A stretch of DNA of 64,000 bases from NCBI RefSeq assembly GCF_002019695.1, contig NZ_KV917376.1:1931380-1995379 (forward strand). The letters are read 5' to 3'. This stretch comes from Evansella clarkii (GTDB taxonomy: Bacteria > Bacillota > Bacilli > Bacillales > Salisediminibacteriaceae). The notes below the pieces were generated by a model, which ran no database searches, was not told the origin of the DNA, and worked only from the letters and a program-made list of their open reading frames with translations. The translations under genes were made by a program, and so were the position numbers. Of this stretch, positions 8,549 through 64,000 are shown piece by piece; the first letter of the stretch is position 1; each line of letters begins with the position of its first letter.

Positions 8549-8866
8549 TTCGCACGAGTTTGAGAGTGGATTGCACAAGTTTCAGGTTGGTTCGCACAAG
8601 TTCAGGTGGATTGCACAACTTTTAGGGTGAATCGCACAAGTTTGAGGGGCATTCGCACGAGTTTCAGGTTGGTTCGCACAAATTCAGGTGAATTGCACAA
8701 CTTTTAGGGTGGATCGCACGAGATTGATGGTCATTCGCACGAGTTTCAGGTTGGATCGCACAAGTTCAGGTGAATTGCACAACTTTTAGGGTGGATCGCA
8801 CGGGATTGATGGTCATTCGCACAACTTCAAGGTTGGTTCGCGCAACATCCATGGCAATTTGCACAC
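8549..8866 (+). repeat. Phased 21-bp intergenic array B (core TTCGCACAAG / TTGCACAACT)
   Basis: Sixteen copies of a GCAC-centred core start at 8552, 8573, 8594, 8613, 8634, 8655, 8676, 8695, 8716, 8737, 8758, 8777, 8798, 8819, 8840 and 8861. Steps are 21 bp, with three 19-bp steps spaced four units apart, so there is an 82-bp higher-order repeat (21+21+21+19). The last two or three units are degenerate. The array lies between the flaG terminator and the fliD promoter. Confidence 0.9.
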
Positions 8867-8919
8867 GTTAAATTAATTATTAACTGGCGGGTTAAAAATT
8901 GTTTAATCCTATTTTTTCC

Positions 8920-8946
8920 TAAAGATTAAAGAGGTTCTGCCGATAA
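8920..8946 (+). promoter_or_regulatory. Sigma-D (motility) promoter of fliD
   Basis: TAAA (8920-8923), a 15-bp spacer and GCCGATAA (8939-8946) match the sigma-D consensus at all but the last base. The fliD start follows about 55 bp downstream. Confidence 0.8.
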
Positions 8947-9001
8947 TAATGATAGAAATTAAATTCTGCGTGATTGCAGATGGCAGGAAGGAATGACGGA
9001 G

Positions 9002-10669
9002 ATGCTCCGAATCGGAGGACTTGCGACAGGTATGGATACGCATCAGATGATCGATGATTTGATGCGGGCGGAACGGATGCCGCTGAATAAACTGGTTCAG
9101 GATCGTACAAGACTGGAGTGGCAGCGGGATGCTTACAGGGATATAAATCTGCAAATGAGGAGCTTCAGGGATTCATTTGCGGCGAGAGGGCTGGGTCTTC
9201 AGTCCACTTTCCTGCAAAAATCAGTATCCAGCTCCAACCCCAGTGTAGTAACAGCGACAGCGAACGCCAACGCTTCTAATACAACGGTACAAATGCAGGT
9301 GGAAAGACTGGCGACATCCAGTACGTTTGTTTCTGCTGGTATTACAGATGAAAATGTTAGTTCAAAAAAATTAAGTCAGTGGTCAAACGCCGAAGATATT
9401 TTTGGCCGGGATAGCGAGAATAACTTAAATTCAAGGGCTGTCATTGCAGTAAATGTTACTAGGCCAGGGGGAGAAGCCGAAACACTGGAAGTAGAAATAA
9501 GTAAAGAGGATACTTTGCAGTCAGTTATCACAAAAATGAACCGGGCAAACCTCGGCTTTAACGCATTTCTGGATAAAAGTGCTGATGGCAGCGATCCCCA
9601 GGTTGTACTGTCCATGTCAGACAGTGGGGCGGGAGCAAAAATCAGCTTTTCTAACGTTACGGATAGTGATGATGAAGGTGTAAATAACAAGCTCGATGCC
9701 GGAAGGGCTCTATTCGGCGCGATGAACTTTGATTTTCATGAAGATACTCTTGGAGTGGATGAAAATAATAATGTAACTCGAGGCAGAAGCGGCCAGAACG
9801 CTGTTGTCGTAATAAACGGGCACCGGACAGAGCGGACGACAAACCAGTTTACAATGAATGGTGTTTCCTATTCCCTGAGCGGAACAACGCCTCCTGGAGA
9901 AATGGTCATGGTCACCGCCACAACAAACACAGACAAAATCATGGAAGATATCATGAAGTTTGTGGAGGATTATAATGCGTTGATTGATACGATCAATGGT
10001 TCCCTGAGAGAGGAAAGGCACCGGGATTATCATCCTCTTTCCGATGAAGAGAAGTCGGCGATGAGCGACCGGGAAGTGGAGCTTTGGGAGGAAAAGGCAA
10101 GAAGCGGATTGCTCCGTAACGATTCCACATTGTCTTCTACTTTAAACCAGATGCGGATGGCATTATATTCATCGGTGGGCACTGATCCAGACAGGATAAT
10201 CAAGGACCTGTCACAGATAGGGCTTGTAAGTTCACGTGATTATATGGATGGAGGAAAAATCATCCTTGATCCAAATTCACGGGAAATGCCGAACGGCCAG
10301 AGGATGAACGGGGAAGACCGTCTCCGTTACTACATTGAAAACCATGGGGAAGAACTTGGCCAGCTGTTTATGGGCGATGGCCCAACTAATGAAGATAAAG
10401 GGATTATCCGGAGACTCAGAAGCACGATGGATAACGCCATTAACAGAATTACAGACAGAGCCGGCCGGGAAGGACGAACCAACCATCAGTTTACACTCGG
10501 CAGGCAGCTCAATAATCTTGAGGATAGAATCACTAACTTTGAACGTCGGATGCAGCAGACAGAACAGCGGTACTGGAATCAGTTTACCGCATTGGAAAAA
10601 GCGATGGCCCAGATGAATTCACAGGCAGAACAGATGTGGTCCATGATGAGCGGGATGATGGGACAGTAA
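9002..10669 (+). CDS. fliD: Flagellar hook-associated protein 2 (filament cap)
   Basis: FliD forms the cap at the filament tip that folds incoming flagellin. The protein has about 555 residues. The N-terminal signature LRIGGLATGMDTHQMIDDLM (from residue 2) and the adjoining coiled coil are typical of FliD_N. A variable middle domain carries the Ig-like folds, and a C-terminal coiled coil (about 490-545, with LNNLEDRITNFERRM) is followed by a Met/Gln-rich end. Two starts are possible: ATG 8993, with AGGAAGG only 1 bp away, or ATG 9002, with the same site 10 bp away; I prefer 9002. Expression is probably from the sigma-D promoter at 8920. fliS and fliT follow. Confidence 0.9.
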   Translation: MLRIGGLATGMDTHQMIDDLMRAERMPLNKLVQDRTRLEWQRDAYRDINLQMRSFRDSFAARGLGLQSTFLQKSVSSSNPSVVTATANANASNTTVQMQVERLATSSTFVSAGITDENVSSKKLSQWSNAEDIFGRDSENNLNSRAVIAVNVTRPGGEAETLEVEISKEDTLQSVITKMNRANLGFNAFLDKSADGSDPQVVLSMSDSGAGAKISFSNVTDSDDEGVNNKLDAGRALFGAMNFDFHEDTLGVDENNNVTRGRSGQNAVVVINGHRTERTTNQFTMNGVSYSLSGTTPPGEMVMVTATTNTDKIMEDIMKFVEDYNALIDTINGSLREERHRDYHPLSDEEKSAMSDREVELWEEKARSGLLRNDSTLSSTLNQMRMALYSSVGTDPDRIIKDLSQIGLVSSRDYMDGGKIILDPNSREMPNGQRMNGEDRLRYYIENHGEELGQLFMGDGPTNEDKGIIRRLRSTMDNAINRITDRAGREGRTNHQFTLGRQLNNLEDRITNFERRMQQTEQRYWNQFTALEKAMAQMNSQAEQMWSMMSGMMGQ

Positions 10670-10776
10670 TTAATTTTGACAGCAGCCTAACTTTATTTTT
10701 TCAAGGCAGTCAAAAAGCTGGACAACCTGCTGGAGGACGGATTGCTTTTTTTAGAAAACAAGGAGGCATTTATAAA

Positions 10777-11211
10777 ATGGCTATGAAAAACCCGTATGCG
10801 AATTATCAGCAGAAATCGATTCAGACAAAATCTCCAGGCGAGCTTACGCTAATGCTTTATGATGGTTGTCTGAAGTTTATCAGGCGCGGGGCAAAAGCGA
10901 TAGAGGAAAATAATATCGAGGAAAAAAATACGAATCTCATAAAAGCGCAGAATATTATTCGCGAGCTTATGGTGACGCTTAAGACAGACACTGCAGTGGC
11001 GAAAAATATGATGCAGATGTACGACTTTATTTTAAGCCGCCTCATCGATGCGAACACTCATAACGATCCGCAAGCTTTAAAGGAAGCAGAACAGTTTGTT
11101 GCTGATTTCCGCGACACATGGAAAGAGGTTATTAAACTTGACCGGCAGCAGCGTCATGGGGTTTCCAGAGTTGCTGGTGGCGGAGCTGGCGGAGGAGCGG
11201 TACGGCTGTGA
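10777..11211 (+). CDS. fliS: Flagellin-specific export chaperone FliS
   Basis: FliS binds the C-terminus of flagellin in the cytoplasm and keeps it unfolded for export. The 144-residue product shows the family start NPYANYQQKSIQTKSPGELT and the four-helix core containing LMLYDGCLKFIRR. The C-terminus ends in an unusual Gly/Ala-rich tail (VAGGGAGGGAVRL). The start is the ATG at 10777, preceded by AGGAGG at 10761-10766; the frame is open further upstream but lacks a ribosome-binding site there. The stop overlaps the fliT start (GTGA), so the two are translationally coupled. Confidence 0.93.
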   Translation: MAMKNPYANYQQKSIQTKSPGELTLMLYDGCLKFIRRGAKAIEENNIEEKNTNLIKAQNIIRELMVTLKTDTAVAKNMMQMYDFILSRLIDANTHNDPQALKEAEQFVADFRDTWKEVIKLDRQQRHGVSRVAGGGAGGGAVRL

Positions 11212-11561
11212 GCCAGTTTGTGAAGCTATACCAGGTAACGGAACAGCTCTATGAGCATGTAGTTCAGACGGTGGGAAAAGATGACCGGGACAGTTATATT
11301 GAGAAGCTGTCCGGGCTCATTGAGGAGAGGACCCGGATTATTGAGGCAATTGGCGGTGTAAAACCTTCTGAAGGAGAAGCCGTTATTTTAAAGCAGGCAG
11401 TGGAGCGTAATGAGCAAATGGGACCACGCCTTCAGGAAGTTCTTAATAGTGTGAAACGGGATATGCTGCAACTGAAAAAGAAGAAGCAGACAGGCCAGCG
11501 TTATGAAAATCCATATGACCACGCTCCTCTGGATGGTGCGTTTATTGATAAAAAAAATTAA
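11208..11561 (+). CDS. fliT: Flagellar protein FliT-like (filament-cap chaperone)
   Basis: The 117-residue, mainly helical and highly charged protein is encoded directly after fliS, starting with a GTG that overlaps the fliS stop by 3 bp. Position after fliD-fliS, size and helical character match B. subtilis FliT, the proposed chaperone of FliD. The sequence of this family is poorly conserved, so the call rests largely on context. The C-terminal 25 residues are probably disordered. A terminator follows within 15 bp. Confidence 0.75.
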   Translation: MSQFVKLYQVTEQLYEHVVQTVGKDDRDSYIEKLSGLIEERTRIIEAIGGVKPSEGEAVILKQAVERNEQMGPRLQEVLNSVKRDMLQLKKKKQTGQRYENPYDHAPLDGAFIDKKN

Positions 11562-11573
11562 TAGTGATTTGAG

Positions 11574-11603
11574 AAAGGATGCGGAGTATAGCATCCTTTT
11601 TTT
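11574..11603 (+). terminator. Intrinsic terminator of the fliD-fliS-fliT unit
   Basis: AAAGGATGC pairs with GCATCCTTT across a 7-nt loop and is followed by a T-run. The structured element at 11610 begins right behind it. Confidence 0.8.
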
Positions 11604-11609
11604 GTTTTA

Positions 11610-11760
11610 TCCCGATGTAACCGTCCGTAAAACTCCCGCCTGAAAACATGAGGGGAAGCGAAGATGTTCAGGCGGGAGATAACGGACGCTAACATCCCGA
11701 TTGGTTCAACTAACAATCAGTGGGGGATGAATATCCCCAGTGATTGAAGGTTCACTTTAT
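11610..11760 (+). mobile_element. IS200/IS605-like MITE, copy 1
   Basis: This roughly 151-bp element recurs at 24330, 35903 and 48911. The left part folds into a long stem-loop: GATGT, CGTCCGT and CTCCCGCCT pair with AGGCGGGAG, ACGGACG and ACATC. A second hairpin has arms CAATCAGTGGGG and CCCCAGTGATTG. The right end is TTCACTTTAT. Sequence similarity between copies stops abruptly at both ends, just after TTTAT on the left. Terminal hairpins, lack of target duplication and TTTAT-type borders fit IS200/IS605-derived elements. No transposase is encoded. Confidence 0.65.
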
Positions 11761-11810
11761 GGAAAGCACAGTCTTTTGTCAAAAAATTTTTTGTGAGATG
11801 CCTTTTATCG

Positions 11811-11908
11811 GCGCATCGCCAATAAACCATCCGATTTCGCCGATAAAATTAAAATTTCGCCGATAAAAACCAGATTTCGCCGATATAATAAATTTTTCGC
11901 CGATATCT
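11811..11908 (+). repeat. Phased 20/21-bp intergenic array C (core TTTCGCCGATA)
   Basis: Five CGCC-centred cores start at 11817 (degenerate), 11838, 11858, 11878 and 11898, giving steps of 21, 20, 20 and 20 bp. An inverted partial copy (TATCGGCG) lies at 11806-11813. The core belongs to the same family as arrays D and E. Confidence 0.8.
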
Positions 11909-12129
11909 CAACCCTGCCTCCTAAAATTATCCCCCCTCAACTAACTCAACCCTGTATTTCATCAGCAGAACCCTGCCATATTAGCAACTACACCTGCTTA
12001 ATCCTTAGACATCTTCTCAAAATCTGTGGTATTTTAAATTGTCCGGCTAAAATCGAGTGAAATCATCATGTTTCAACGTGAAGATTTTACACATATTAAG
12101 AAAGACTGTATGGTGAAAGGATGAAATCT

Positions 12130-13347
12130 ATGGAAAAGAATACATTAAACAAAACCACGATGACTGCGAAGGAACGGCTCAGTGCCCTGCTTGGTGCGGC
12201 ATTTCTTATGGCAACTTCCGCTGTTGGCCCGGGTTTTTTAACACAGACTGCGGTTTTTACAGAACAGCTGCTTGCCAGCTTCGCCTTTGTTATTCTGGCA
12301 TCGATCGTACTTGATATTGGCGCTCAGGTGAATATTTGGAGGATTATTGCGGTAGCAGAAAAAAGAGGGCAGGATATTGCCAACCAGGTGCTTCCGGGCC
12401 TTGGGTATGTTGTAGCATTTTTTGTAGTCCTTGGGGGACTTGCCTTTAATATTGGAAACGTTGCCGGAGGCGGCCTTGGGGCAAACGCTCTTCTCGGAGT
12501 GGATCCAGTACTGGGTGCTGTTTTTACAGGGATTATTTGTGTACTGATATTTTTATCCCGCCAGGCAAATATGGCGATGGATAAGGTTGTCCGGTATTTA
12601 GGGGCCCTTATGATCCTTCTGACAGCGTATGTCATGTTCGTCAGCCAGCCGCCGTATGCAGAAGCGGCATTGCGTACTGTTGCTCCCCTTGAGCTTGATA
12701 TTCTGGCGATTGTAACGATTGTCGGCGGTACAGTCGGTGGATACATAACTTTTGCCGGCGGTCACAGATTGCTTGATGCTGGCATTACCGGCAAAGATAA
12801 TTTACGATATGTAACAAACACAGCTATATCAGGAATTGTCGTAGCTTCGATTATGAGGGTTATCCTGTTTTTAGCGATACTCGGTGTAGTGGCCGCAGGT
12901 TTTGCCCTTGATCCGGATAATCCTACAGCTTCTGTTTTCCAGATAGCCGCTGGTGATATAGGCTTTCGGATGTTCGGACTGGTGCTGTGGGCTGCGGGAA
13001 TCACTTCAGTTATTGGAGCGGCGTATACCTCCGTTACTTTTCTTACTTCTTTTCATAAATCGATTGAGAAGAACCGTAACTACTGGGTTATCGGATTTAT
13101 TGTTTTTTCAACAGTCGTATTCGCACTGATTGGACGCCCTGTAGCACTTCTCGTTTTAGCAGGGGCATTTAACGGGTTGATTCTGCCGCTGACATTAGGC
13201 TCGATCCTGCTTGCAGCCCATAATAAAAAAATTATTGGGGACTACAGGCACCCGGTCTGGCTCACTGTATTCGGTGCGCTAGTCGTGGTTTTAACAGCTT
13301 ATCTGGGAGTGAGGACACTAATCGTATCAATACCCCAGCTTTTTTAA
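12130..13347 (+). CDS. NRAMP-family transporter of the 5-oxoproline operon (YcsG-like)
   Basis: The protein of about 405 residues has eleven or so transmembrane segments and an NRAMP-like first helix (SAVGPGFLTQTA). In B. subtilis, ycsG lies in the ycsF-ycsG-ycsI-kipI-kipA cluster; here it heads the pxpB-pxpA-pxpC genes. A role in uptake of 5-oxoproline or a related substrate is inferred from context only; the canonical metal-binding DPGN motif of NRAMP metal carriers is replaced by VGPGF, which argues against Mn2+/Fe2+ transport. The ATG at 12130 has GAAAGG 8-9 bp upstream; an ATG at 12121 would touch that site. Confidence 0.8.
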   Translation: MEKNTLNKTTMTAKERLSALLGAAFLMATSAVGPGFLTQTAVFTEQLLASFAFVILASIVLDIGAQVNIWRIIAVAEKRGQDIANQVLPGLGYVVAFFVVLGGLAFNIGNVAGGGLGANALLGVDPVLGAVFTGIICVLIFLSRQANMAMDKVVRYLGALMILLTAYVMFVSQPPYAEAALRTVAPLELDILAIVTIVGGTVGGYITFAGGHRLLDAGITGKDNLRYVTNTAISGIVVASIMRVILFLAILGVVAAGFALDPDNPTASVFQIAAGDIGFRMFGLVLWAAGITSVIGAAYTSVTFLTSFHKSIEKNRNYWVIGFIVFSTVVFALIGRPVALLVLAGAFNGLILPLTLGSILLAAHNKKIIGDYRHPVWLTVFGALVVVLTAYLGVRTLIVSIPQLF

Positions 13348-13406
13348 AGTGGTATCGGGTGCCGTGCAGCATGCAGGCATCCTTTATGGAGTAAGGAGTG
13401 TTGGAG

Positions 13407-14132
13407 ATGGAGAAACAACGGTTTTCCCCTATGGGTGATTCGGCGGTCAGGGTCTCGTTCGGCGAGGGAATTTCCAAAGAAATAAATAACAGGATCAGAG
13501 GATTCGCAGAACTGCTTCGTAAGGCTGGAATTAAAGGAATTCGCGAATGGACTCCCAGCTATACGGCAGTCACTGTTTATTATGATCCTTGCGAGAAAAA
13601 ATACAGTGAGATAACGGCTGAGCTTGAGGAGCTGTACCGGAAACTGGAGGAAACAGAACTTCCTCCGGCGAAAAGAGTAATTGTACCTGTATGTTATGAA
13701 GGGGAGTTCGCGCCTGATCTTGAGGATGTTGCGAACCATAACGGCCTGTCGACTGACGAGGTTGTTTCCATCCATAAAGGTGGTGATTACCTGATTTATA
13801 TGCTTGGGTTTACTCCAGGGTTCCCTTATATGGGAGGTATGGCTCCGAAAATTGCCACACCAAGGCTGGAAGTTCCTCGTTCGCATGTGCCGGCCGGCTC
13901 TGTAGGAATCGCCGGAGAGCAGACGGGGATTTATTCACTTGATACACCAGGGGGCTGGCGGATTATCGGCCGGACTCCTTTGGTGCTTTACGATAGTAAG
14001 CGGGAAAACCCCTCGCTGTTTGAAGCAGGGGATCATGTAAGTTTTCGAGCGATCAGCACGGAGGAATATGAAGATATAAAAAAACAAGTGGAAGCTGGCG
14101 AGTATGAAGTGGAGTATGAAACGGTGGATTAG
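13407..14132 (+). CDS. pxpB: 5-oxoprolinase subunit PxpB (KipI family)
   Basis: PxpB is the KipI-type subunit of the ATP-dependent 5-oxoprolinase PxpABC, which hydrolyses 5-oxoproline to glutamate in the cytoplasm. In B. subtilis, KipI also inhibits the sporulation kinase KinA. The 241-residue product has the N-terminal segment GDSAVRVSFGEGI and the cyclophilin-like C-terminal domain with LGFTPGFPYMGGM, SHVPAGSVGIAG and TPGGWRIIGRTP, all typical of the family. The ATG at 13407 has AAGGAG 8 bp upstream; the in-frame GTG and TTG codons before it are less likely. It lies downstream of the YcsG-like gene and is separated from pxpA by repeat array D. Confidence 0.9.
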   Translation: MEKQRFSPMGDSAVRVSFGEGISKEINNRIRGFAELLRKAGIKGIREWTPSYTAVTVYYDPCEKKYSEITAELEELYRKLEETELPPAKRVIVPVCYEGEFAPDLEDVANHNGLSTDEVVSIHKGGDYLIYMLGFTPGFPYMGGMAPKIATPRLEVPRSHVPAGSVGIAGEQTGIYSLDTPGGWRIIGRTPLVLYDSKRENPSLFEAGDHVSFRAISTEEYEDIKKQVEAGEYEVEYETVD

Positions 14133-14139
14133 AAGAGCA

Positions 14140-14320
14140 GTTTCGTTGATAGAACAGTAATTCTCGTTGATTGGACGACGGATATCGTTGATAGAACATC
14201 GGTTTTCGCTGATAGCACGCTAATTTTCGTTCATTGAACAACAGATTTCGTGCATAGCATATTGAATTTCATTCATTAAACAACAGATTTCGTTCACAGA
14301 ACAGTGAATTACATCCAGTG
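14140..14320 (+). repeat. Phased exact 21-bp intergenic array D (core TTTCGTTGATAGAAC)
   Basis: Nine cores have their C at 14144, 14165, 14186, 14207, 14228, 14249, 14270, 14291 and 14312: eight consecutive steps of exactly 21 bp. Units vary (TTTCGTTGATAGAAC, TTTCGTTCATTGAAC, TTTCATTCATTAAAC), but the outer TTC-N7-GAA frame is mostly kept. The array starts 7 bp after the pxpB stop and ends 35 bp before pxpA, inside what should be one operon. Confidence 0.9.
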
Positions 14321-14355
14321 GATAACTCACTGTAAAGACAGGAGGGGGAATAAAC

Positions 14356-16079: not shown

Positions 16080-16155
16080 TTTTTGACAGGCTGGGTACTT
16101 CGGGAAAAAATAAAGCGTAATTTTTACAGAGGAGAAGCTGGAAGGAGAGGGTTTG

Positions 16156-16545: not shown

Positions 16546-16560
16546 TAAACAGAGTGTATT

Positions 16561-16597: not shown

Positions 16598-16641
16598 CAG
16601 GTTGTACAAGGGAAGAAATGTATTAACATAAGGTTGCTCTG

Positions 16642-19214: not shown

Positions 19215-19736
19215 TTAAAAGTGTTGCACGTTCTCTCTGGCAGCATGTGGTTGTCCTGAAGATCCTGACGAAGATTGAACTGGCTGGCTGGACGGTTGTC
19301 CAGTTTGAACCGGGGAGGAAACGGAAGTTCCGTTTGCTGCTGCCACCGTCTGGTTTTGCCGCGGAGGCGGTGCATGCTCTTCTCCCGGAATTGGAATTTC
19401 CTCCGCCTGCTGGTTTCTTTTCAGGTGCAGAAAGGTAATGTTTTCAGCGATGAGTTCAGGAAAGGTGAGCCGCTTATTATCACTTGTTTCATAGTTTCGC
19501 ATCTGAATTCTTCCGGTAATGCAGACGAGAGAACCTTTTGTACAATAATCTCCGCTTGTTTCAGCGAGCTTTTTCCATGCAGTGCAGGAGAGGAAATCCG
19601 TATCGTAGTTTCCTTCCTGATTTTTAAATGGGCGGCGGACAGCAAGATTAATTCTGGTTACGGCGATGCCATCCTTGGTTGTGTTTACTACCGGGTCTTT
19701 TACGATACGTCCTATTAAGGTAATTTGGTTATACAT
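19215..19736 (-). CDS. ssb: Single-stranded DNA-binding protein, second type (SsbB-like)
   Basis: The 173-residue protein has an N-terminal OB fold (1-108) with the SSB signature NQITLIGRIVKDPVVN, VTRINLAVRRPFKNQ, DFLSCTAWKKLAE and GRIQMRNYE. The tail (110-173) is rich in Gln, Pro and Ser and ends NVQHF, so the acidic tip (DDDLPF type) that recruits replication proteins in housekeeping SSB is missing. This matches accessory, competence-type SsbB proteins. Its AGGAGG lies within the last codons of the transposase gene upstream and only 3 bp separate the frames, so the two are translationally coupled. It binds ssDNA; its partner is unknown. Confidence 0.85.
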   Translation of the reverse strand: MYNQITLIGRIVKDPVVNTTKDGIAVTRINLAVRRPFKNQEGNYDTDFLSCTAWKKLAETSGDYCTKGSLVCITGRIQMRNYETSDNKRLTFPELIAENITFLHLKRNQQAEEIPIPGEEHAPPPRQNQTVAAANGTSVSSPVQTGQPSSQPVQSSSGSSGQPHAARENVQHF

Positions 19737-19739
19737 AGC

Positions 19740-20462
19740 TTATTCCTCCTGTTTTTTAGTTAATAATGCGGACTTTTGCAGTACGCGAAGCTTCCATTCC
19801 CTTTCGGTGAAGCGGGGATAATAATGATGAAGAGGTGTCGGGAAAAGCTGCCTGAGTCTGTCTGTTGTAAAGGCGTGTGGAGGCGAGCGGGGAGCACAGC
19901 CAGGGAGTATGGGAGGGGAATGGAGCCGTGATAGGGCTTCCATGGCATAAGCTGTTTCCTCGCCAGGGGTAGTGGTGCTGGCTGTATCAAATGGCTTTGG
20001 ATTTCGCTCTGCTATTATGTCCGGAATACAATAATATTGATAGCTGCTCCACGGGTAATCTTCGGGGTTGCTTGTTATATTGGCTGTACGGGGGTTATTG
20101 TGTATATAGGCGCTTACCGTCATCATGGCATAGTCAGAGGGAACGGGGCTTGCAGTGTACCGGCTTTGGAAAACATGGCCTGAGTGATCGTATTTCTTAT
20201 TAAACCACGAGGCGTAAGCTCCATTTACTGCATGCATTATTTTCATCAGTGGATCTTTTTTAGTCCCGAGGAGTAAATGATAATGATTGGACATTAGACA
20301 GTAGGCATGCAGGTTAAACGGGCTGTAATGTAAGGTGTTGTTCAGGATAGAGAGGAATTTCTCATAATCTTTCTCGTGAAGGAATATTGGGGAACGGCTC
20401 ACTCCGCGGCTGATTACATGATATATCGCACCGGGGAACCATTGGCGGCGTGGTCGGGGCAT
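19740..20462 (-). CDS. REP-associated tyrosine transposase (HUH Y1 transposase family)
   Basis: The 240-residue protein of the Y1_Tnp/RAYT type has the N-terminal PRPRRQWFPGAIYHVISRG, the HUH motif in CLMSNHYHLLL (about 55-65), QSRYTASPV and the conserved catalytic-Tyr helix SAYIHNNPRTANI (about 121-133), followed by PWSSYQYY. Such enzymes nick single-stranded DNA at hairpins and, in other bacteria, are tied to dispersed REP palindromes. It is a single-copy gene without flanking IS ends, as is usual for RAYTs. An ssb gene follows immediately. A good AAAGGAAGTG site precedes the ATG. Confidence 0.9.
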   Translation of the reverse strand: MPRPRRQWFPGAIYHVISRGVSRSPIFLHEKDYEKFLSILNNTLHYSPFNLHAYCLMSNHYHLLLGTKKDPLMKIMHAVNGAYASWFNKKYDHSGHVFQSRYTASPVPSDYAMMTVSAYIHNNPRTANITSNPEDYPWSSYQYYCIPDIIAERNPKPFDTASTTTPGEETAYAMEALSRLHSPPILPGCAPRSPPHAFTTDRLRQLFPTPLHHYYPRFTEREWKLRVLQKSALLTKKQEE

Positions 20463-21154: not shown

Positions 21155-21183
21155 AATTGTGCGGGGCCAGACCCCGCACAATT
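21155..21183. repeat. REP-like palindrome 1, acting as asnB terminator
   Basis: AATTGTGCGGGG and CCCCGCACAATT form a perfect 12-bp stem with loop CCAGA. The element abuts the asnB stop codon. A short run of T on the minus strand follows, so it can serve as terminator. The same core recurs at five other loci in the window. Confidence 0.8.
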
Positions 21184-39470: not shown

Positions 39471-41334
39471 GTGTGCCCGGCATGTGCATACGCTTTAGGG
39501 TTCAAGTCCCGAACAGTGAAGGTCGTTGTAACTGCTAGCTAAAGGCAAGGGTGTCCGGGGCGACTCGGAATCTGAAGGAAGCCGGAGGCAAATCTCCGAC
39601 CCGAGGAACACGAATCTCATACAAGGCTGTCTGGTCTGGATGAGGCTGCAAAACAAGTCAAAGTCCTAACGACCGAAGGATCCGGCAGTAAATGAGGCGG
39701 GTATATGGAGAGGAAGTTTATGCACTTACCCGGGGAGGTCTGACAGGAACGCCGTACAAATGCGGTAACTGATTCCAGGAGGAATCACTGAACTGTCAGA
39801 AGTCAGCCGAAGCCATAGTACCACAGATTTCTAGATTTTGTGGGAAGGGCTGAATCATGAAAAGAGTGCTCATCCACCTGCGTACGTATCATTCGATGAC
39901 ACAGAACATACCAGCTTGCCTAGGAAGCAGAGGTGAATCCCTCCAGGGCTTAGGAAGCGTGGAGAATGATACCACACAATGGAAAGGAAGAGCCACGTGG
40001 AGGTTAATGTGATGTTGGAAGAGATATTACACCGAGACAATTTGAATAAAGCATATCTCAAGGTAGTCCAAAATAAAGGGAGCCAGGGCGTTGACGGCAT
40101 TACCACTGCGGAACTGAAATCCCAGATCTCCGAAGAATGGTCTGCCATCCGCCAGGGGCTCTTGTCGAGAACCTACCAACCGTCACCGATCCGCCGAGTC
40201 GAAATCCCGAAACCGGACGGGGGTAAACGGAAGTTAGGGATCCCGACTGTCATGGACCGTCTGATCCAGCAATCCATTAATCTCTACCTTCAACGAATCT
40301 ATGATCCGACATTTTCTAAGAACAGTTACGGTTTCCGCCCGAAACGACGAGCCCATGATGCCGTGTTGAAAGCAAAACAGTATATCAACGAAGGGTACAC
40401 ATGGGTGGTCGATATTGATCTGGAGAAATTCTTCGATAAAGTGAACCACGACCGGTTGATGCAAACGTTAAGTTACCGTATTAGCGACAGAAGGGTGTTG
40501 AGCATCATCCGGAAATACCTTCAGGCAGGAATCATGGAAAACGGATTAGTTAGGCAAAACGACATGGGGACTCCCCAAGGGAGTCCATTAAGCCCGCTTC
40601 TCTCAAATATTGTCCTGGATGAATTGGACAAAGAACTGGAGAAACGGAGTATTCGCTTTGTCCGCTATGCGGACGACTGCCAGATTTACACGGGGTCAAA
40701 GAAAGCCGCAGAGCGTATCCGAAAGAACATGATCACCTTCATTGAAGATAAACTGAAGCTAAAGGTAAATCGGGAAAAGAGCGCGGTAGACCGTCCGTGG
40801 AAACGAAAGTTCCTGGGTTTCAGTTTCACAGCTTCTTCTAAAGGAAAAGCGAAAATAAGAATACACAGGGAATCAATCCAACGGGCAAAAGGTCGAATCC
40901 GTGAGATTACTTCCCGAAAGAAAAGTATTCCTATGGAATACAGAATTGGCAAGCTGAACCGGTTTATCGTCGGCTGGAGAAATTATTTCCGACTGGCGGA
41001 AACACCCTCGGTATTAAAGGAATTAATGAAGTGGATAAGAAGAAGACTTCGAATGGTACGATGGAAAGAATGGAAGAAACCGAAAACAAAAGTCAGAAAC
41101 CTAATCGCCTTGGGAGTATCGAAGCAGAAGGCTTATGAATGGGGAAACACAAGAAAAGGCTACTGGCGAGTCGCCTGTAGCCCAATTCTCCACCATACGC
41201 TTAATGACGCCTATTGGCGCAGGATGGGTTTGAAATCGTTGATATAACGTTTGATTTTCATGAAACCGCCGTATACGGATCCGTACGTACGGTGGTGTGA
41301 GAGGTCGGGGGTTAGTCACCCCCTCCTACTCGAT
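39471..41334 (+). mobile_element. Group II intron, class IIC (bacterial C)
   Basis: The 5' end GTGTGCC at 39471 matches the group II GUGYG rule. A long structured region (39471-40000) precedes a reverse transcriptase frame. Domain V at about 41264-41298 has the CGC catalytic triad (ACCGCCGTATACGG ... CCGTACGTACGGTGG), which marks class IIC; other classes have AGC. Domain VI and the 3' end (CTACTCGAT) close the element at about 41334. Insertion right after an intrinsic terminator is the hallmark of IIC introns. The 3' boundary is accurate to a few bases. Confidence 0.85.
40012..41247 (+). CDS. ltrA: Group II intron-encoded reverse transcriptase/maturase
   Basis: The roughly 411-residue protein has the RT fingers-palm blocks NKGSQGVDG, PKPDGGKRKLGIPT, NSYGFRPKRRAHDA, WVVDIDLEKFFDKVNHD, GTPQGSPLSPLLSN and the catalytic YADD in FVRYADDCQIY. 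Maturase domain X follows (GWRNYFRLAE and the region after it). No endonuclease domain is present, as usual for class IIC. The start is probably the ATG at 40012 with TGGAGG 8 bp before; an ATG at 39979 is also in frame. The protein aids splicing of the intron RNA and reverse-transcribes it during retrohoming. No disruption is seen. Confidence 0.92.
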   Translation: MLEEILHRDNLNKAYLKVVQNKGSQGVDGITTAELKSQISEEWSAIRQGLLSRTYQPSPIRRVEIPKPDGGKRKLGIPTVMDRLIQQSINLYLQRIYDPTFSKNSYGFRPKRRAHDAVLKAKQYINEGYTWVVDIDLEKFFDKVNHDRLMQTLSYRISDRRVLSIIRKYLQAGIMENGLVRQNDMGTPQGSPLSPLLSNIVLDELDKELEKRSIRFVRYADDCQIYTGSKKAAERIRKNMITFIEDKLKLKVNREKSAVDRPWKRKFLGFSFTASSKGKAKIRIHRESIQRAKGRIREITSRKKSIPMEYRIGKLNRFIVGWRNYFRLAETPSVLKELMKWIRRRLRMVRWKEWKKPKTKVRNLIALGVSKQKAYEWGNTRKGYWRVACSPILHHTLNDAYWRRMGLKSLI

Positions 41335-54507: not shown

Positions 54508-54583
54508 CGAGGGTCTGGCCCCTCACAATTTTGTGACAGTTCAGGGGCCGTGACAGTTCAGGGGCCAGACCCCGCACAATTTT
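54508..54583. repeat. REP-like palindrome cluster 5 (head-to-head pair)
   Basis: A forward unit (GAGGGTCTGGCCCC then TCACAATTTTGTG) is followed by TTCAGGGGCC twice, then by a reverse unit GGGGCCAGACCCCGCACAATT. Two opposed copies in one spacer resemble the paired arrangement known for REP sequences (BIMEs). Confidence 0.7.
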
Positions 54584-55402: not shown

Positions 55403-55523
55403 CTGTTCAATCGGCGAAAACCGTGGTTCAATGAACGAAATATGGGATTCAATTAGCGAACTGAGGTTCAATGAACGAAATATGGGGTTCAATCGGCGAA
55501 ATTCAAGGTTCAATCAACGATCT
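55403..55523 (-). repeat. Phased 21-bp intergenic array E (core GGTTCAAT-N4-CGAAA)
   Basis: Six cores start with TTC at 55406, 55427, 55448, 55467, 55488 and 55509, giving steps of 21, 21, 19, 21 and 21 bp. The core is TTC-AAT-N4-GAA. On the minus strand it reads TTTCGTTCATTGAAC or TTTCGCCGATTGAAC. The first of these 15-mers also occurs in array D, 41 kb away. The array lies between ppaX and yvoF. Confidence 0.88.
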
Positions 55524-56125: not shown

Positions 56126-56147
56126 TCTCTTGAGGGGTGTTTTTTAT
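56103..56147 (+). terminator. Intrinsic terminator of yvoF, overlapping its last codons
   Basis: ACGCCCCTCAGGAGA pairs with TCTCTTGAGGGGTGT (few mismatches) and is followed by six T. The left arm lies inside the coding end. Confidence 0.75.
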
Positions 56148-56189
56148 TTAAGGAGGTTGGACCAGGGGGGAGTAATGGTGCCATTGGAG

Positions 56190-56325
56190 GTGTGCGTACC
56201 TCCCTCCTGGTTGTGCGAACACCGCCCGATGTTGTGCGAAAGACGTTCTTAGTTTTGCGAACGACGTTCTTAGTTATGCGAACGTCCCCCCTAGGTTGTG
56301 CAAACACATTTCTGAAACGTGCAGC
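56190..56325 (-). repeat. Phased 21-bp intergenic array F (core TTGTGCGAAC)
   Basis: Seven TGCG or TGCA cores start at 56193, 56214, 56235, 56256, 56277, 56299 and 56320, giving steps of 21, 21, 21, 21, 22 and 21 bp. On the minus strand the core reads GTTCGCACAAC, which is the core of array B. It lies between yvoF and hisZ, upstream of the candidate his promoter. Confidence 0.88.
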
Positions 56326-56370
56326 CCGCCTGACCCCAACTCACATAAAACGAATCTTCTGTTTTTTTGG

Positions 56371-56399
56371 TTGACTGTCAGTAGAATCCCCTGTAGACT
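56371..56399 (+). promoter_or_regulatory. Candidate sigma-A promoter of the his operon
   Basis: TTGACT (56371-56376), a 17-bp spacer and TAGACT (56394-56399). The leader to hisZ would be about 180 nt and contains REP-like site 6. I saw no T-box or His-rich leader peptide. Confidence 0.45.
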
Positions 56400-56511
56400 A
56401 CAAATATGATCTTTATTGCATTATCACATTAGCGAACTAAAGTAGATGAACTTAAGTAACAAAAAAACAATGTTACAATTAATATAATAAGCAACAATAT
56501 TAGAAGAAGTT

Positions 56512-56556
56512 CACAAAATTGTACGGGGTCTGGCCCCCGAAATATGGGGGCACCGA
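56512..56556. repeat. REP-like palindrome 6 in the his leader
   Basis: CACAAAATTGTACGGGG, TCTGGCCCCCG, then GGGGGCACC. The centre matches the other sites and the left flank matches site 4. It could form a hairpin just before the hisZ start. Confidence 0.65.
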
Positions 56557-56582
56557 AACATACAGGATGGGGTGTTGGCAGG

Positions 56583-57773: not shown

Positions 57774-58450
57774 CTGAGAACAGCAAAGGCCCAGTAATAG
57801 AAACGAACTCTGAAATAATAACGGTTGCCATGCCTAAAGGACGGATTTTTGAAGAGGCGGTCTCCTTGCTCCGGCAGGCAAATTATCCCCTTCCCCCGGA
57901 ATTTGAAGATTCCAGAAAGCTTATTATCGAGGTCCCTGAAGCAGGCATGCGTTTTATCCTTGCAAAACCAATGGATGTGCCGACATACGTGGAATACGGT
58001 GTAGCAGATGTTGGTGTTGCGGGAAAAGATGTTTTACTTGAAGAAAAACGGGATGTATATGAGGTGCTGGACCTGAAAATCAGCGAATGTTATATGGCTG
58101 TGGCTGGCTTGCCTGAATACGATCCTAAAGCAGATATCGCTCCAAAAATAGCGACAAAGTATCCGAATCTTGCTTCTGATTACTTCCGGGAACAGGGAGA
58201 GCAGGTGGAAATCATTAAGCTCAATGGATCTATTGAGCTGGCACCGATTATCGGGCTTGCTGACCGTATCGTGGATATAGTTTCTACCGGAAGGACTCTG
58301 AAGGAAAACGGTCTCGTTGAACTGGAAACGATGATGCCGATTACTTCCCGGTTTATCGTAAACCCGGTAAGCTACAGAACGAAATCGGCGGCTATTGATG
58401 ATATGGCAGAGCGTATTGCAGCTGTGGTGGAAGGAGAAAAAACAACATGA
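57770..58450 (+). CDS. hisG: ATP phosphoribosyltransferase catalytic subunit, short form
   Basis: HisG condenses ATP and PRPP at the start of histidine synthesis. The 226-residue short form lacks the C-terminal regulatory domain and needs HisZ. Evidence includes [15 protein letters not shown], the phosphate-binding [15 protein letters not shown] and [14 protein letters not shown]. The N-terminal 15 residues ([15 protein letters not shown]) are extra compared with B. subtilis HisG. The start overlaps the hisZ stop and the end overlaps hisD by 4 bp. Confidence 0.95.
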
Positions 58451-59718
58451 AAATCGTTCCCCTTAGTTCAGATGTTTCATTAAAGCGCAGCCTTGATGAA
58501 GGTACAGAGGAGCAGCTGAAGGCTGTAAAGGAAATCATTGCAGCGGTGAAAAAAGAAGGTGATGCTGCTGTTCTCAAATACACAGAGCAATTTGACGGTG
58601 TCCCTCTTCAGGATAACAAAGTTACCCAGGAGGAGATCGATGAAGCGTATAATAAAATAGATGAAGAAACGCTCGCTATTATTCGGGAGGCAAGAGAAAA
58701 TATAAGGGATTTTCACGCCCGGCAGGTTCAGCAGTCCTGGATCACGACAAAAGAGGATGGAACGATCCTCGGCCAGAAAGTGACTCCCCTTGATGCAGCC
58801 GGAGTTTACGTACCTGGAGGCCGTGCAGCATACCCGTCCACAATATTAATGAACGTGGTTCCTGCGCAGGTTGCAGGCGTAGAGCGAATTGTGATGGTTT
58901 CTCCCCCGCAAAAAGACGGCAGCCTGAATGCCACTGTTCTTGTAACGGCCAGTGAACTAGGCATTAAAGAAATATACAAAGCAGGCGGTGCTCAGGGTGT
59001 CGCAGCTCTTGCCTACGGGACGGAGTCTGTCCTCCCGGTTGATAAAATTGTCGGTCCTGGAAATATTTATGTAGCGCTGGCAAAACAGCAAGTGTTCGGT
59101 TCGGTAGACATTGATATGATTGCAGGTCCAAGTGAAATCGTCGTGCTTGCTGACAAAACAGCGAATGCCGACTACGTGGCAGCTGACCTTTTGTCGCAGG
59201 CGGAACATGATCCAATGGCCTCTGCAATCCTCGTTACTACTGATCAAACCCTTGCTGAGAAAGTATCAGAAGAGGTGGAACAGCAGCTGAAAAGTTTGCC
59301 GAAAGAGGAAATAGCCTCAGCTTCTATTAGAGATTTCGGAGCGATTTACGTGGCTGAAACGATGGACCAGGCCGTAGATGCAGTAAATGAGCTGGCTCCG
59401 GAACATCTGGAGGTTATGACAGAGGAGCCGTGGGAGATTCTTCCCCGAATTCGCCATGCAGGTGCTATTTTCCTTGGCGAATACAGTTCCGAGCCGGTTG
59501 GTGATTACTTTGCCGGTCCGAACCACGTGCTGCCTACAAACGGAACAGCCCGGTTTTCAAGTCCGCTCACAGTAGAGGATTTTACGAAAAAATCCAGTAT
59601 CCTGTCTTACAGTAAATCAGCAATGAGCAAAAACGGTGAAAAGATCGCGGCATTTGCCCGCCTTGAAGGATTAGAAGCTCATGCAAGGGCAGTGGAAAAA
59701 CGCTTTGAGGGTAAATGA
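58447..59718 (+). CDS. hisD: Histidinol dehydrogenase
   Basis: HisD oxidises histidinol to histidine in two NAD-dependent steps. The 423-residue zinc enzyme has [64 protein letters not shown] (with the catalytic/zinc His) and [16 protein letters not shown]. Length is normal. It overlaps hisG by 4 bp, while the next gene, hisB, is 390 bp away because of an insertion in the operon. Confidence 0.96.
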
Positions 59719-60110
59719 ATTTCACATATGGGTTTTGTGTAAAAGAAGTCTACCACTATTTTTCGAATTGCAGCGTAAGACGGCGGTGACTGTCTCTTCC
59801 TCTGACAGCTTAGCTCCGGAGAATATCCGTCGAGACAACTCGATGCATTTGCGTGATGAAGATCCTCGTTCTTGCGGGAACGCGCGAGCTGAAAATCCAT
59901 TTTTGACGGCGTTCAGCCGGCAAAAATTAGTTGAAGCCGTGCCCGCAGAACGCGTCCGTCTGAAGCGTGAATCGAACAACAGAGTAACAATTTAAGATAA
60001 CAGTCGTATTAGAAATGAAAATCTTGAATCATGAAATTGATTCAGGGTAAAAAGTAAAAAATAACACGGATAAGCAGCACTTTATTTTTACAACCGAACG
60101 GAGGAACATG
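59719..60110. repeat. Repeat-like insertion splitting the his operon, with 75-bp repeat copy 2
   Basis: The segment 59719-59968 resembles a dispersed Bacillus intergenic repeat: I recognise AGACGGCGGTGAC, GCGCGAGCTGAAAATCC and GTTGAAGCCGTGCCCGC then CGTCCGTCTGAAGC. The 59969-60044 part is the second copy of the 75-bp repeat at 49074 and contains TGAATCA-N6-TGATTCA. No promoter or gene is clearly seen. Transcription must read through it or restart within it for hisBHAFI. Confidence 0.55.
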
Positions 60111-60704
60111 ATGAGTAAACGCGAGGCAACAATTCAGCGAAAAACAAATGAAACCAATATTGAGCTATCTTTTAATATAGATGGGGATGGAAAAGCGCGT
60201 CTTGAGACAGACGTTCCTTTCATGACGCATATGCTCGATCTTTTTACGAAGCACGGGCTGTTTAATCTTGACCTTACTGCTAAAGGTGACACAGAAATAG
60301 ACGATCACCATACGACTGAGGACATAGGCATCGTCCTTGGGAGTGCGCTTAAACAGGCCCTCGGTGATAAAAAAGGGATTAAAAGATACGGAAATGCATT
60401 CGTTCCAATGGATGAAGCCCTCGCACAGGTGGTTGTGGACCTTAGCGACCGCCCTCATCTGGAATTCCGGGGCGAGCTTCCGGCCCAGAAAGTCGGTTCT
60501 TTTGATACGGAGCTTGTCCATGAGTTTTTGTGGAAGCTGGCACTTGAGGCGAGGATGAACCTTCACGTTATTGTTCACTACGGCCACAATACCCACCATA
60601 TCATTGAAGCGATATTTAAAGCACTTGGGCGTGCTCTTGATGACGCAACACAGAAGGACCCTCGGGTGACAGGGGTGCCATCGACGAAAGGAAGCTTAGG
60701 ATGA
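60111..60704 (+). CDS. hisB: Imidazoleglycerol-phosphate dehydratase
   Basis: HisB performs the dehydration step of histidine synthesis. The 197-residue protein has the manganese-ligand motifs [38 protein letters not shown] and [18 protein letters not shown]. It is the monofunctional form, with no phosphatase domain. The ATG at 60111 is better placed behind GGAGGA than the ATG three bases before it. It overlaps hisH by 4 bp. Confidence 0.95.
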
Positions 60705-61330
60705 TCGGAATAGTAGATTACGGAATGGGAAATCTCTACAGCGTAACGAAGGGTCTTGAACGAATTGGCCATACGCCGTTTCTTTCCGAAGATCCTGATG
60801 AACTGGCAAAAGCAGACCGGCTGCTCCTCCCTGGTGTAGGTTCATTCCGGGATGGGATGGCAGAGCTTAAGAAAAGAGGCCTTGATGAATTTTTGAAAAA
60901 ATGGGCTGCTGAAGGACGTCCACTCCTTGGAATCTGTCTCGGGATGCAGCTCCTTTTTGAGGCCAGTGAAGAAAACGGACCGACAGAGGGGCTTGGCCTG
61001 CTGCCAGGAGAGGCAGTGAGATTTTCCGGTAAAACAGCGGATGGGCGGCGTTATAAAGTTCCTCATATGGGCTGGAACAGGCTGGAGTTTCATCAGCCTG
61101 ACCATCCGATTTTAAAAGATGTTCCGTCCGGCCATGTATACTTTGTACATTCCTATGTGGTTAAAGTAAAGGAAGCGGATGTGCTCATAGCTTCTTCAGA
61201 CTATGAAGAGCTCGTGCCTGCAGTAGTTGGCAGGGGATCTGTCTGGGGCACTCAGTTCCACCCGGAAAAAAGCAGTGTCGCTGGAATGCGTATGCTGTTG
61301 AATTTCGCCAACGCGAAAGGGGTTATTTAA
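60701..61330 (+). CDS. hisH: Imidazole glycerol phosphate synthase, glutaminase subunit
   Basis: HisH supplies ammonia from glutamine to HisF. The 209-residue class I amidotransferase has the nucleophile in [13 protein letters not shown] (Cys near residue 80), [17 protein letters not shown] and the catalytic His-Glu pair in GTQFHPEKS. It directly precedes hisA, whose ATG follows the stop codon without overlap. Standard length. Confidence 0.95.
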
Positions 61331-62062
61331 ATGTTTACAATATATCCTGCTATTGATATCAGAGGCGGTAAGTGTGTAAGGCTGATTCAAGGTGATTATA
61401 ATCAGGAAACTGTTTATGGGGAGTCGCCTTTTCAGATGGCTGAGGATTTTGCTGAAAAGGGGGCAAGCTGGATACATATGGTGGATCTTGATGGGGCAAA
61501 GGAAGGAAAGCCTGTAAATGATGAAGAGATCTTAAAGGCTGCCCGGGAGCTTGATGCTTCCATTCAGGTTGGCGGGGGTATCCGCGACCGTAATGCTGTT
61601 TCCCGTTATCTGGATGGCGGGGTAAGCAGAGTCATTCTCGGAAGTTCAGCTATTTCTGATCCGCAGTTTGTCAAAGAAATGCTTGCAGAATATGGCGGCG
61701 AGCGTGTAGCTATCGGTATTGATGCAAGGGACGGATATGTTGCAACCCACGGATGGCTGCAAACTTCGGAAGTGAAAGCGGAAGAACTGGCACTGGAACT
61801 GGCCGGTTACGGGGCAGAAACTTTTATCATGACAGACATTTCCCGGGACGGTATGCTCTCAGGACCTAATACAGAAGCGATAGCTAATCTTGGCAAAGTT
61901 ACTGGTAAAAAAGTTATTGCCTCCGGCGGCATGAAGGAAATGGATGACCTGCGTAAACTAAAAGAGCGTTTGGGTGATGGTGTTTCTGGTGCCATTATCG
62001 GCAAAGCGCTGTATACCGGGAGAATTGACCTCGTGGCAGCCTTAAAGGAGGCAGGGGAATAA
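61331..62062 (+). CDS. hisA: ProFAR isomerase
   Basis: HisA isomerises the ProFAR intermediate to PRFAR. The 243-residue TIM barrel has the two phosphate-binding half-barrel motifs and catalytic Asp in [14 protein letters not shown] (about 4-17), [30 protein letters not shown] and [11 protein letters not shown]. The stop shares its last base with the hisF start. Standard length. Confidence 0.95.
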
Positions 62063-62820
62063 TGCTGACAAAACGAATTATTCCTTGTCTCGATGTGAAG
62101 GAAGGCAGAGTGGTTAAAGGCGTTCAGTTTGTCGATTTGCGGGATGCCGGTGATCCGGTGGAGCTTGCCGCCTTTTATGATGAACAAGGGGCAGATGAAC
62201 TCGTTTTTCTTGATATCTCTGCTTCTCATGAAGGAAGGGAAACGATGGTCGATGTGGTGGAAGAGGTGGCGGCTAAGCTCGCTATCCCCTTTACAGTCGG
62301 CGGAGGGATTAATACTCTGGAAGACATGAAGCGGATTCTTCGGGCAGGAGCGGACAAAGTTTCCTTAAATACTGCTGCACTAAAAAGGCCGGACCTGATT
62401 AGTGAGGGAGCTGATTTCTTTGGTTCCCAGTGTATCGTTGTGGCGATTGATGCAAAATGGGATGAAGTACTTGGTTCCTGGCGGGTATACACCCATGGAG
62501 GACGAAAAGAAACAGAGTGGGACGCAGTTTCCTGGGCTAAAAAAGCAGTTGAACTCGGTGCAGGAGAGATTCTGCTGACTAGTATGGATCAGGACGGAGA
62601 AAAAACCGGATTTAATATTTCCCTGACTAAAGCTGTCAGTCTCGCCGTATCTGTGCCCGTTATTGCCTCCGGAGGCGCCGGTGCTAAAGAGCATTTTTAC
62701 GATGTGTTCGATGATGCAAAGGCAGATGCGGCTTTAGCAGCTTCTATTTTCCATTATAAAGAGACATCTGTCGCGGAAGTAAAAGCGTATTTAAAGGAAA
62801 AGGGGCTGGAAATACGATGA
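62062..62820 (+). CDS. hisF: Imidazole glycerol phosphate synthase, cyclase subunit
   Basis: HisF forms imidazoleglycerol phosphate and AICAR using ammonia from HisH. The 252-residue TIM barrel has [48 protein letters not shown] (catalytic Asp) and [12 protein letters not shown]. It overlaps hisA by one base and hisI by 4 bp. Confidence 0.96.
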
Positions 62821-63494
62821 AGCTTAATATAAATGAACTGAAGTTTGACGAAAAAGGTCTCCTTCCTGCTATTGTTCAGGATTATCAGAGTAAAGAGGTT
62901 CTTACTCTCGCTTATATGAACCAGGAGTCGCTGCGCAAAACCGTTGAGACCGGGGAAACTTGGTTTTACAGCCGTTCCAGGCAGGAGCTCTGGCATAAAG
63001 GTGCTACTTCGGGAAATACCCAGCAGGTAGTGGAACTGCGGGCAGATTGTGATCAGGACGCTCTTATCGTTCTTGTCATACCTTCAGGACCAGCATGCCA
63101 CGAAGGTACATACAGTTGTTTTAAAACAGTAACAGCTGATAGCCCGCCGGGAGATACGGAAAAAGCGAGCAGCAAGGATACTTCCTCCTTCCTGGAAGGT
63201 GAACGTTTCGCTATTTTGAATAAGCTGGAAAGCCTGATTGCTGAAAGGCAGGGAGAACTTCCTGAAGGTTCCTACACCACTTATTTGTTTGAAGAAGGCG
63301 TAGATAAAATTCTTAAGAAGGTTGGGGAAGAGGCTTCGGAAGTGATTATCGCGGCGAAAAACCGGGATAAGGAAGAGTTGACATGGGAAAGTGCCGATCT
63401 TCTTTTCCACTGGCTTGTACTGTTGCGCGAGCAGGGCCTTCCGTTAGATGAAGTTTTGAAACGTCTCGAAGATAGACATATAAAAGGTAATTAG
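62817..63494 (+). CDS. hisI: Bifunctional phosphoribosyl-AMP cyclohydrolase / phosphoribosyl-ATP pyrophosphatase
   Basis: HisI (HisIE) carries out steps two and three of histidine synthesis. The N-terminal cyclohydrolase domain (1-112) has [36 protein letters not shown] and the zinc site DCDQDALIV with CHEGTYSCF. The C-terminal MazG-like pyrophosphatase (about 130-225) has [14 protein letters not shown] and [13 protein letters not shown]. The 225-residue length is typical of the fusion. Last gene of the operon. Confidence 0.95.
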
Positions 63495-63526
63495 AGACTG
63501 ATGCTGCAGGCTGTCCCAAGTTGATG

Positions 63527-63563
63527 AAAACCCGTACCTCTTCTTGGAAGGTGCGGGTTTCTC
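63527..63563 (+). terminator. Intrinsic terminator of the his operon
   Basis: AAACCCGTACCT pairs with AGGTGCGGGTTT (one G-T pair) across a 9-nt loop. A short T-containing tail follows. Confidence 0.75.
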
Positions 63564-63570
63564 CAATTTC

Positions 63571-64000
63571 ACAACAAGGAAGTGTGATATCGCATTAAGG
63601 AACTCGATTCGCAACAAGACGGCGTGATATCGCAACAAGCACCCTCTTTTTCGCAACAAGACGGTGCGATATCGCAATAAGGAACTCGATTCGCAACAAG
63701 ACGGAGTGATATCGCAACAAGCACCTTCCTTTTCGCAATAAGCCATGGTGATATTGCAACAAGAAATTCGATTCGCAACAAGGCGGTGTGATATCGCAAC
63801 AAGCACCCTCTTTTTCGCAATAAGCCATGGTGATATCGCAACAAGCAACTCGATTCGCAACAAGACGGTGCGATATCGCAATAAGGAACTCGATTCGCAA
63901 CAAGACGGCGTGCTATCGCAACAAGCACCCTCTTTTTCGCAACAAGACGGCGTGCTATCGCAACAAGCACCCTCTTTTTCGCAACAAGACGGCGTGCTAT
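63571..64000 (+). repeat. Phased 21/19-bp intergenic array G (core ATCGCAACAAG / TTCGCAATAAG), runs off the window
   Basis: Twenty-one cores start from 63571 (degenerate), 63592, 63611, 63632, 63653, 63674, 63693, 63714 and so on to 63981. All steps are 21 bp except five of 19 bp. The 19-bp step always goes with the linker ending in ACTCGATTC or AATTCGATTC. Linkers such as ACGGCGTGATATC, CACCCTCTTTTTC and CCATGGTGATATC recur in changing order. Confidence 0.92.

Follow-up and report, generated by a model that had tools for sequence, protein, structure and literature searches.

Helically phased WTCG-anchored arrays in the intergenic DNA of Evansella clarkii as candidate chains of protein-binding sites

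REP/BIME elements are dispersed, intergenic, lineage-specific and often arrayed, with palindromic, hairpin-forming units and linked RAYT genes; CRISPR arrays combine long near-identical repeats with unique spacers. Here we analyze six arrays of short cores repeated mostly every 21 bp (arrays B to G in Table 1) that lie in the intergenic DNA of a 64,000-nucleotide stretch of the Evansella clarkii genome (contig NZ_KV917376.1, positions 1,931,380 to 1,995,379; hereafter the window), together with their counterparts elsewhere in this genome and in its relatives. These arrays show helical phasing, a super-period, slow change of an anchor and an adjoining word, spacers that change at or above the rate of four-fold degenerate sites, and an orientation that follows the replication strand. 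Like REP/BIME elements they are dispersed, intergenic and lineage-specific, but they lack hairpins and RAYT-like genes do not track them. Like CRISPR arrays they pair a conserved repeat with a variable spacer; unlike them, they have a core of about 14 bp, a spacer of about 7 bp, spacers that recur every fourth unit, and hundreds of units spread over many arrays. A CRISPR-like acquisition of spacers was dropped as a reading because of this recurrence at every fourth unit and because the cores appear, by eye, decayed at both array ends.

The initial annotation of this DNA knew no named system of this kind, but one has been described: among the non-coding tandem repeats of 176 Bacillus genomes, units of 20-21 nucleotides (781 cases) and of 51-53 nucleotides (1886 cases) stand out (Subirana and Messeguer 2021, PMC8161180). 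These repeats are constant in size and species specific in sequence, and they contain a short signal, such as TCGCGG in B. weihaiensis; their function is left unexplained in that paper, which guesses at nucleoid proteins or small RNA. The arrays analyzed here belong to this described but unexplained 20-21-nucleotide class, with which they share the constant length of 20-21, the non-coding position, and the presence in one genome of several families with a common short sequence. The published sequences are called species specific, whereas here the words are mostly lineage-specific but TTCGCCGATAA and TTCG cross species. An 82-bp super-repeat, the contrast between core and spacer rates, the replication-strand orientation and the order-wide, cross-genus recurrence of the TTCG anchor are not mentioned in the main text of PMC8161180 and are new relative to it. 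Our literature search, made at listing level, returned nothing closer than that paper; its supplements and a 2020 J. Bacteriol. paper were outside the scope, so that absence of these features from print is not established.

Architecture and genome-wide occurrence of the arrays

Unit parsing recovers all six arrays where the initial annotation had placed them, with E and F on the minus strand as proposed and mostly with the expected 21-bp step, the exceptions being 19 bp in B (three times), G (five times) and E (once), 20 bp in C (three times) and 22 bp in F (once). The 15-mer TTTCGTTCATTGAAC, said to be common to arrays D and E, is likewise found in both. The proposed grouping of the cores has to be revised. 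Array F, to which a core with CAAG had been assigned, carries CACAAC, CATAAC and CAAAAC, and two core families are too few, as the arrays form a single superfamily of WTCG plus a variable word with many array-specific word classes.

The arrays are real and widespread across this genome (G000, 5.48 Mb). Three WTCGY motifs at 19-21-bp steps occur 222 + 95 = 317 times, compared with 6 + 2 = 8 times for the reversed pattern, and a chain detector applied to 1.58 Mb (76 evenly spaced 20-kb stretches and the window) finds 27 arrays, compared with none in the reversed sequence. All but one of these 27 lie outside long open reading frames (ORFs), the remaining one being within a 711-aa ORF; short spurious ORFs overlap some arrays. 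Coding repeats are excluded because the 19- and 20-bp steps disrupt any reading frame. The periodicity is also seen without a motif, as peaks at lags 21, 40 and 42 in the non-coding DNA of the window, and the lag-21 excess that the initial annotation had proposed to look for elsewhere is present in the non-coding DNA of 80 relatives, which peaks at 21, 42 and 52.

A unit, as tabulated from 165 units of 26 arrays (the array within an ORF was dropped), consists of the core and spacer described above. Position 0 of the core is T or A, positions 1-3 are a nearly fixed TCG, position 4 is C or T, and positions 5-10 form the word; the near-fixation of TCG is partly built into this table, since the detector demands a WTCGY-like start. 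Word positions are 0.64-0.77 identical within arrays versus 0.31-0.46 between arrays, and at positions -8 to -3 and from +12 identity is much lower, 0.30-0.45, even within arrays. The word classes of this genome include AGA (98 units), CAACA (96), CAR (79), TTC (58), CAC (37), TTG (36), CAACT (16) and CCG (13), among others. Two units of one array share their word class with a frequency of 0.728, versus 0.142 +- 0.008 after permutation of the words across arrays. In mixed arrays, 49 of 113 adjacent pairs are alike, versus 44 +- 4.3 in shuffles, and words are thus not in blocks.

We also considered a shared spacer skeleton on which words are swapped. Spacer tails from arrays of different word classes are 0.436 identical in the same phase versus 0.356 in different phases (null standard deviation (sd) 0.006), but the effect mostly vanishes in a control restricted to the three 21-bp phases: 0.388 versus 0.372 at positions 12-17 (difference 0.017, null sd 0.007, null maximum 0.036) and 0.449 versus 0.423 at positions 11-20 (difference 0.025, null maximum 0.024). 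The bulk of it is traced to the 19-bp phase and to the bases immediately before the next core, and this candidate was rejected.

The minority 19-bp step noted in the initial annotation does exist, but its placement is not random and tends to every fourth unit. In 89 arrays of E. clarkii and its close relative G005, taken in part from stretches picked because they bear arrays, the steps are 21 bp (568), 19 bp (132), 20 bp (29) and 22 bp (2), with 20 or 21 bp in 597 of 731. Of the 73 intervals between successive 19-bp steps, 53 span four units; these 53 are not independent, since 82-bp blocks have been duplicated. Shuffling the steps within arrays gives a mean of 8.6 and a maximum of 19 (2000 trials). 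The resulting module [21,21,21,19] measures 82 bp, or 8 turns at 10.25 bp. We count 78 copies of it in 39 arrays, which belong to several word classes and include window arrays B and G.

Rates of change, orientation and distribution

Judged by a window protein, the nearest named relative is Evansella caseinilytica (81% identity), in a comparison from which records very close to the window may be missing. Over the aligned stretches, G005 and E. clarkii share about 90% identity, and each of the six window arrays has a counterpart of its kind at the orthologous position in G005. Of 28 anchorable pairs (some neighbours overlap), 22 have at least three phased cores on the G005 side, and in none of the 28 are the two compared segments equally long. 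Substitutions were counted over 74 units in gapless stretches of three or more, with the four-fold sites of 24 window genes as reference. The TCG has changed at 10/222 positions (0.045), the word at 26/222 (0.117) and AT at 13/148 (0.088), versus 796/3496 (0.228) for four-fold sites (Fisher p 2.5e-13, 5.6e-5 and 1.8e-5, respectively). The spacer has changed at 173/592 positions (0.292), which exceeds the four-fold rate (p 8e-4), a hint of misalignment between units or of more rapid change. Nine units anchored directly to unique flanks give few data in the same direction (TCG 2/27, word 5/27, spacer 27/72). The slow change of the core may reflect selection or exchange between units, and by a rough hand estimate (Jukes-Cantor) the slower word change mostly explains the identity of words within arrays. 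Several words of array E differ between the two genomes; among its first four units, three that carry CCG, TTC and TTC in E. clarkii carry TGC in G005, which suggests concerted word change.

Orientation was scored for 57 arrays of E. clarkii, after reverse duplicates and one chance-like array were dropped, relative to an origin near 1.13 Mb and a terminus near 3.39 Mb (from GC skew, with dnaA at 1.138 Mb). The core strand is the lagging strand for 37 of 49 arrays outside the CAACA class (p 0.006) and the leading strand for all eight CAACA arrays (p 0.0016), both relative to a CGAA:TTCG background of 832:669 on the leading strand of other non-coding DNA. The following counts pool E. clarkii with G005, the terminus of which is assumed to lie opposite its origin; being orthologous, the pooled arrays are not independent. 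The lagging-strand rule holds for 27 of the 33 non-CAACA arrays that are flanked by convergent or divergent genes (hand count), and among genes that face against replication 5 of 5 follow replication; among genes of one direction, 17 run with the genes and 21 against them. The orientation of the arrays thus tracks replication, not transcription. CAACA arrays, including window array G, are on the leading strand in 13 of 13 cases, opposite to most other classes, and their core strand has a purine content of 0.585 versus 0.444 in the other classes. As to a possible enrichment near the origin, 25 of the 31 separate sites with four TTCG in E. clarkii are in the origin-proximal half (p 9e-4), but for the evenly spaced stretches, an unbiased sample, the two halves give 11/37 and 5/39 (p 0.09; rank test 0.24).

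Within the genus, the WTCGY test was applied to nine genomes. In addition to E. clarkii (317 versus 8 in the control), the signal is strong in G005 (380 versus 10) and G003 (75 versus 11) and weaker in G006 (37 versus 11), and it is near the control in G001 (13 versus 7), G002 (14 versus 8), G004 (4 versus 1), G007 (3 versus 3) and G008 (14 versus 6). Almost all WTCGY arrays of G003 lie within about 110 kb (G003:C1:4246341-4356425, loci L187-L190), 0.3-0.4 Mb from dnaA, and have the core ATCGCNCGTAACT at steps of exactly 21. Most of these arrays lie on the minus strand, which by the position of dnaA is the leading strand, the opposite sign to most classes of E. clarkii. In G035, 13 sites to the left of dnaA are on the plus (lagging) strand and 5 on the minus strand (hand count, with the terminus position not fixed).

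Across the order, four TTCG at 21-bp spacing are present in 111 of 249 genomes; 37 of the 249 have at least ten matches and five times the control, compared with 5 in the reverse direction, and among the matches listed some look like coding repeats. The TTCG recurs across the order while the cores vary by species (TTCGGTAATAAA, TTCGGCCCAAAC and TTCGGCGTAAAAC), and the word TTCGCCGATAA of array C is also found in Neobacillus mesonae. In 80 loci of relatives, a loose three-core detector yields 13 chains of length three versus 20 in the control, and an excess is clear only for chains of at least five (8 versus 0), one of the 8 being an array with a 42-bp step. A motif-free search of 78 loci (L032-L110 without L040) finds 32 arrays in 20 loci.

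Possible roles and origins of the arrays

We tentatively favor, at somewhat less than even odds, the view that the arrays are chains of predicted sites along which one or several DNA-binding proteins would assemble on a single helical face. In each array, sites about two helical turns apart would be bound side by side, the fixed WTCG anchor and the array-specific word being recognized and the spacer merely setting the distance; the four units of the 82-bp module would be expected in this lineage if a multimer coats or wraps the DNA in fours. The likeliest role for such a chain would be in the organization of the chromosome with respect to replication and not in the control of the adjacent gene. 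The initial annotation had suggested an oligomeric protein or DNA bending, and at the level of DNA its helical phasing is borne out by the two-turn steps, the 82-bp period, the slow cores, and the lack of folding and of transcription bias; the protein, the wrapping and the chromosomal role are what we infer from these. A more elaborate form, which we consider improbable, is a replication-polar scaffold code, in which four-site, 8-turn modules would serve as tracks for paralogous or specificity-shifting proteins, WTCG would be read by all of them, the word would separate the tracks, direction would mark replication polarity, and words would change in concert with their reader.

Several observations weigh against a chain of protein-binding sites. 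Unit numbers turn over fast, with gains and losses of whole units between E. clarkii and G005, and exchange between units could produce the slow change of the cores. Identity between spacers is 0.49 at a distance of four units, versus 0.30-0.41 at distances of one to three, and the 82-bp period is therefore in part a duplication of 82-bp blocks; in G003, which has another core, all steps are 21 bp (40/40 in four stretches). Several species of the genus are nearly without arrays, and 14 of the 32 motif-free arrays of relatives include CG in their best-conserved 5-mer, versus 9.3 expected (p 0.04), a weak excess. Moreover, no reader protein was found: ParB-like and Y1/RAYT-like genes, each present in 9/9 genus genomes, do not track array content, and RAYT and ParB/Noc were accordingly rejected as readers.

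Many of the same facts suit a functionless satellite, in which units are gained and lost by slippage or recombination at the replication fork, the cores stay similar through the exchange of short tracts, for which they alone share enough sequence, and the step derives from the geometry of the machinery that copies or anneals the DNA. The whole-unit gains and losses, the duplicated 82-bp blocks, the TGC words of array E, the orientation linked to replication and the patchy presence within the genus all speak for it, and replication slippage had already been named as an alternative in the initial annotation. This explanation requires, however, that single words or cores be copied without their spacers, and it has to accommodate a TTCG anchor shared by unrelated arrays in many genera and words that are not in blocks in mixed arrays. 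We regard slippage or exchange as nearly as likely as protein binding, so that the coating role is only slightly ahead. A remnant of a single-strand mobile element, multiplied like REP elements by a Y1/RAYT-type transposase or similar acting on lagging-strand DNA, would account for the strand bias, and a Y1-transposase-like gene does lie beside an SSB gene in the window; yet Y1_Tnp matches occur in every genus genome whatever its array content and the arrays lack hairpins, which makes this origin very unlikely. Slightly less likely still is a role as transcribed RNA, for instance as sponges. Such a role has been proposed for 52-nucleotide repeats, which are visible in B. coagulans RNA-seq (PMC8161180; PMC8625621); here orientation is indifferent to transcription, six pieces fold no better than shuffles (z -0.57 to 1.20) and show no hairpins, and an Rfam scan at gathering thresholds gave no family spanning any array, and a reading as structured RNA was rejected. 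The idea that each array is an operator of its adjoining gene fits the intergenic position and a median distance of 164 bp to the nearest 5' end, but neighbour functions are unrelated, as initially noted (9 of 10 flanking proteins scanned have Pfam matches), and gene arrangement at 71 non-CAACA arrays is near background (38 same-direction, 18 convergent, 15 divergent; p 0.10), which leaves it the least probable of all.

In the literature, bacterial satellites of constant size still pose a puzzle. The TTCG anchor, the core and spacer rates, the 82-bp module and the replication orientation go beyond a conserved length without a conserved sequence and lead to specific predictions on a DNA-binding factor and its footprint. 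A coating protein, if there is one, would be an unrecognized part of chromosome organization in many Bacillaceae; if there is none, the arrays would clearly exemplify bacterial satellite turnover linked to the replication fork.

Array coordinates and other features of the window

Table 1. Arrays and other features of the window, in positions counted from its first letter
Feature	Position	Strand	Description
Array B	8549..8878	+	21-bp array, word class CAC (TTCGCACAAG); flanked by flaG and fliD; contains 82-bp module
Array C	11815..11917	+	20-21-bp array, word CCGAT (TTCGCCGATAAA); upstream of Nramp-like gene
Array D	14142..14309	+	21-bp array, words TTGAT/TTCAT; flanked by carboxyltransferase-domain gene and LamB/YcsF gene
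Array E	55405..55521	-	Words CCG/TTC/CTA/TTG before ATTGAA; flanked by HAD hydrolase gene and hexapeptide acetyltransferase gene
Array F	56184..56304	-	Words CACAAC/CATAAC/CAAAAC; flanked by acetyltransferase gene and hisZ
Array G	63568..64000	+	Word CAACAAG, 21 cores to window end, beyond which the array continues; 82-bp module; downstream of hisI/hisE-type gene
Example array DNA			Two array types: TTCGAGAAT, TTCGCAACAAG
Inverted pairs	4281..4760		GGACAAA...TTTGTCC, often 51 bp apart (4281/4332, 4467/4518, 4654/4705), within 187-bp tandem repeat
SSB and Y1_Tnp genes	19215..20462	-	SSB-family gene; Y1_Tnp gene (240 aa) upstream in same direction
Group II intron matches	39554..41334		Matches flank both sides of 422-aa ORF (39979-41247)
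Near-palindromes	21160..21182, 56523..56541		Two dispersed, GC-rich: GTGCGGGGCCAGACCCCGCAC, GGGGTCTGGCCCCCG
Perfect 17-bp double	54533..54566		GTGACAGTTCAGGGGCC

The 51-53-nucleotide repeats of Bacillus resemble the 21-bp arrays in that their length is constant and close to an integral number of helical turns, and they often occur in the same genomes; unlike the window arrays, they often hold inverted repeats inside the unit (PMC8161180). The inverted pairs near the start of the window look like this class, which would then share the window with the 21-bp class. Arrays of 52 bp, seen as a lag-52 peak, are carried by many named relatives (L032, L053, L065, L091, L095 and others).

The Y1_Tnp gene of the window scores 64.6 bits with the model of REP-associated tyrosine transposases (cut-off 80) and is not adjacent to any array. 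The 422-aa ORF with its flanking matches is probably part of a complete group II intron.

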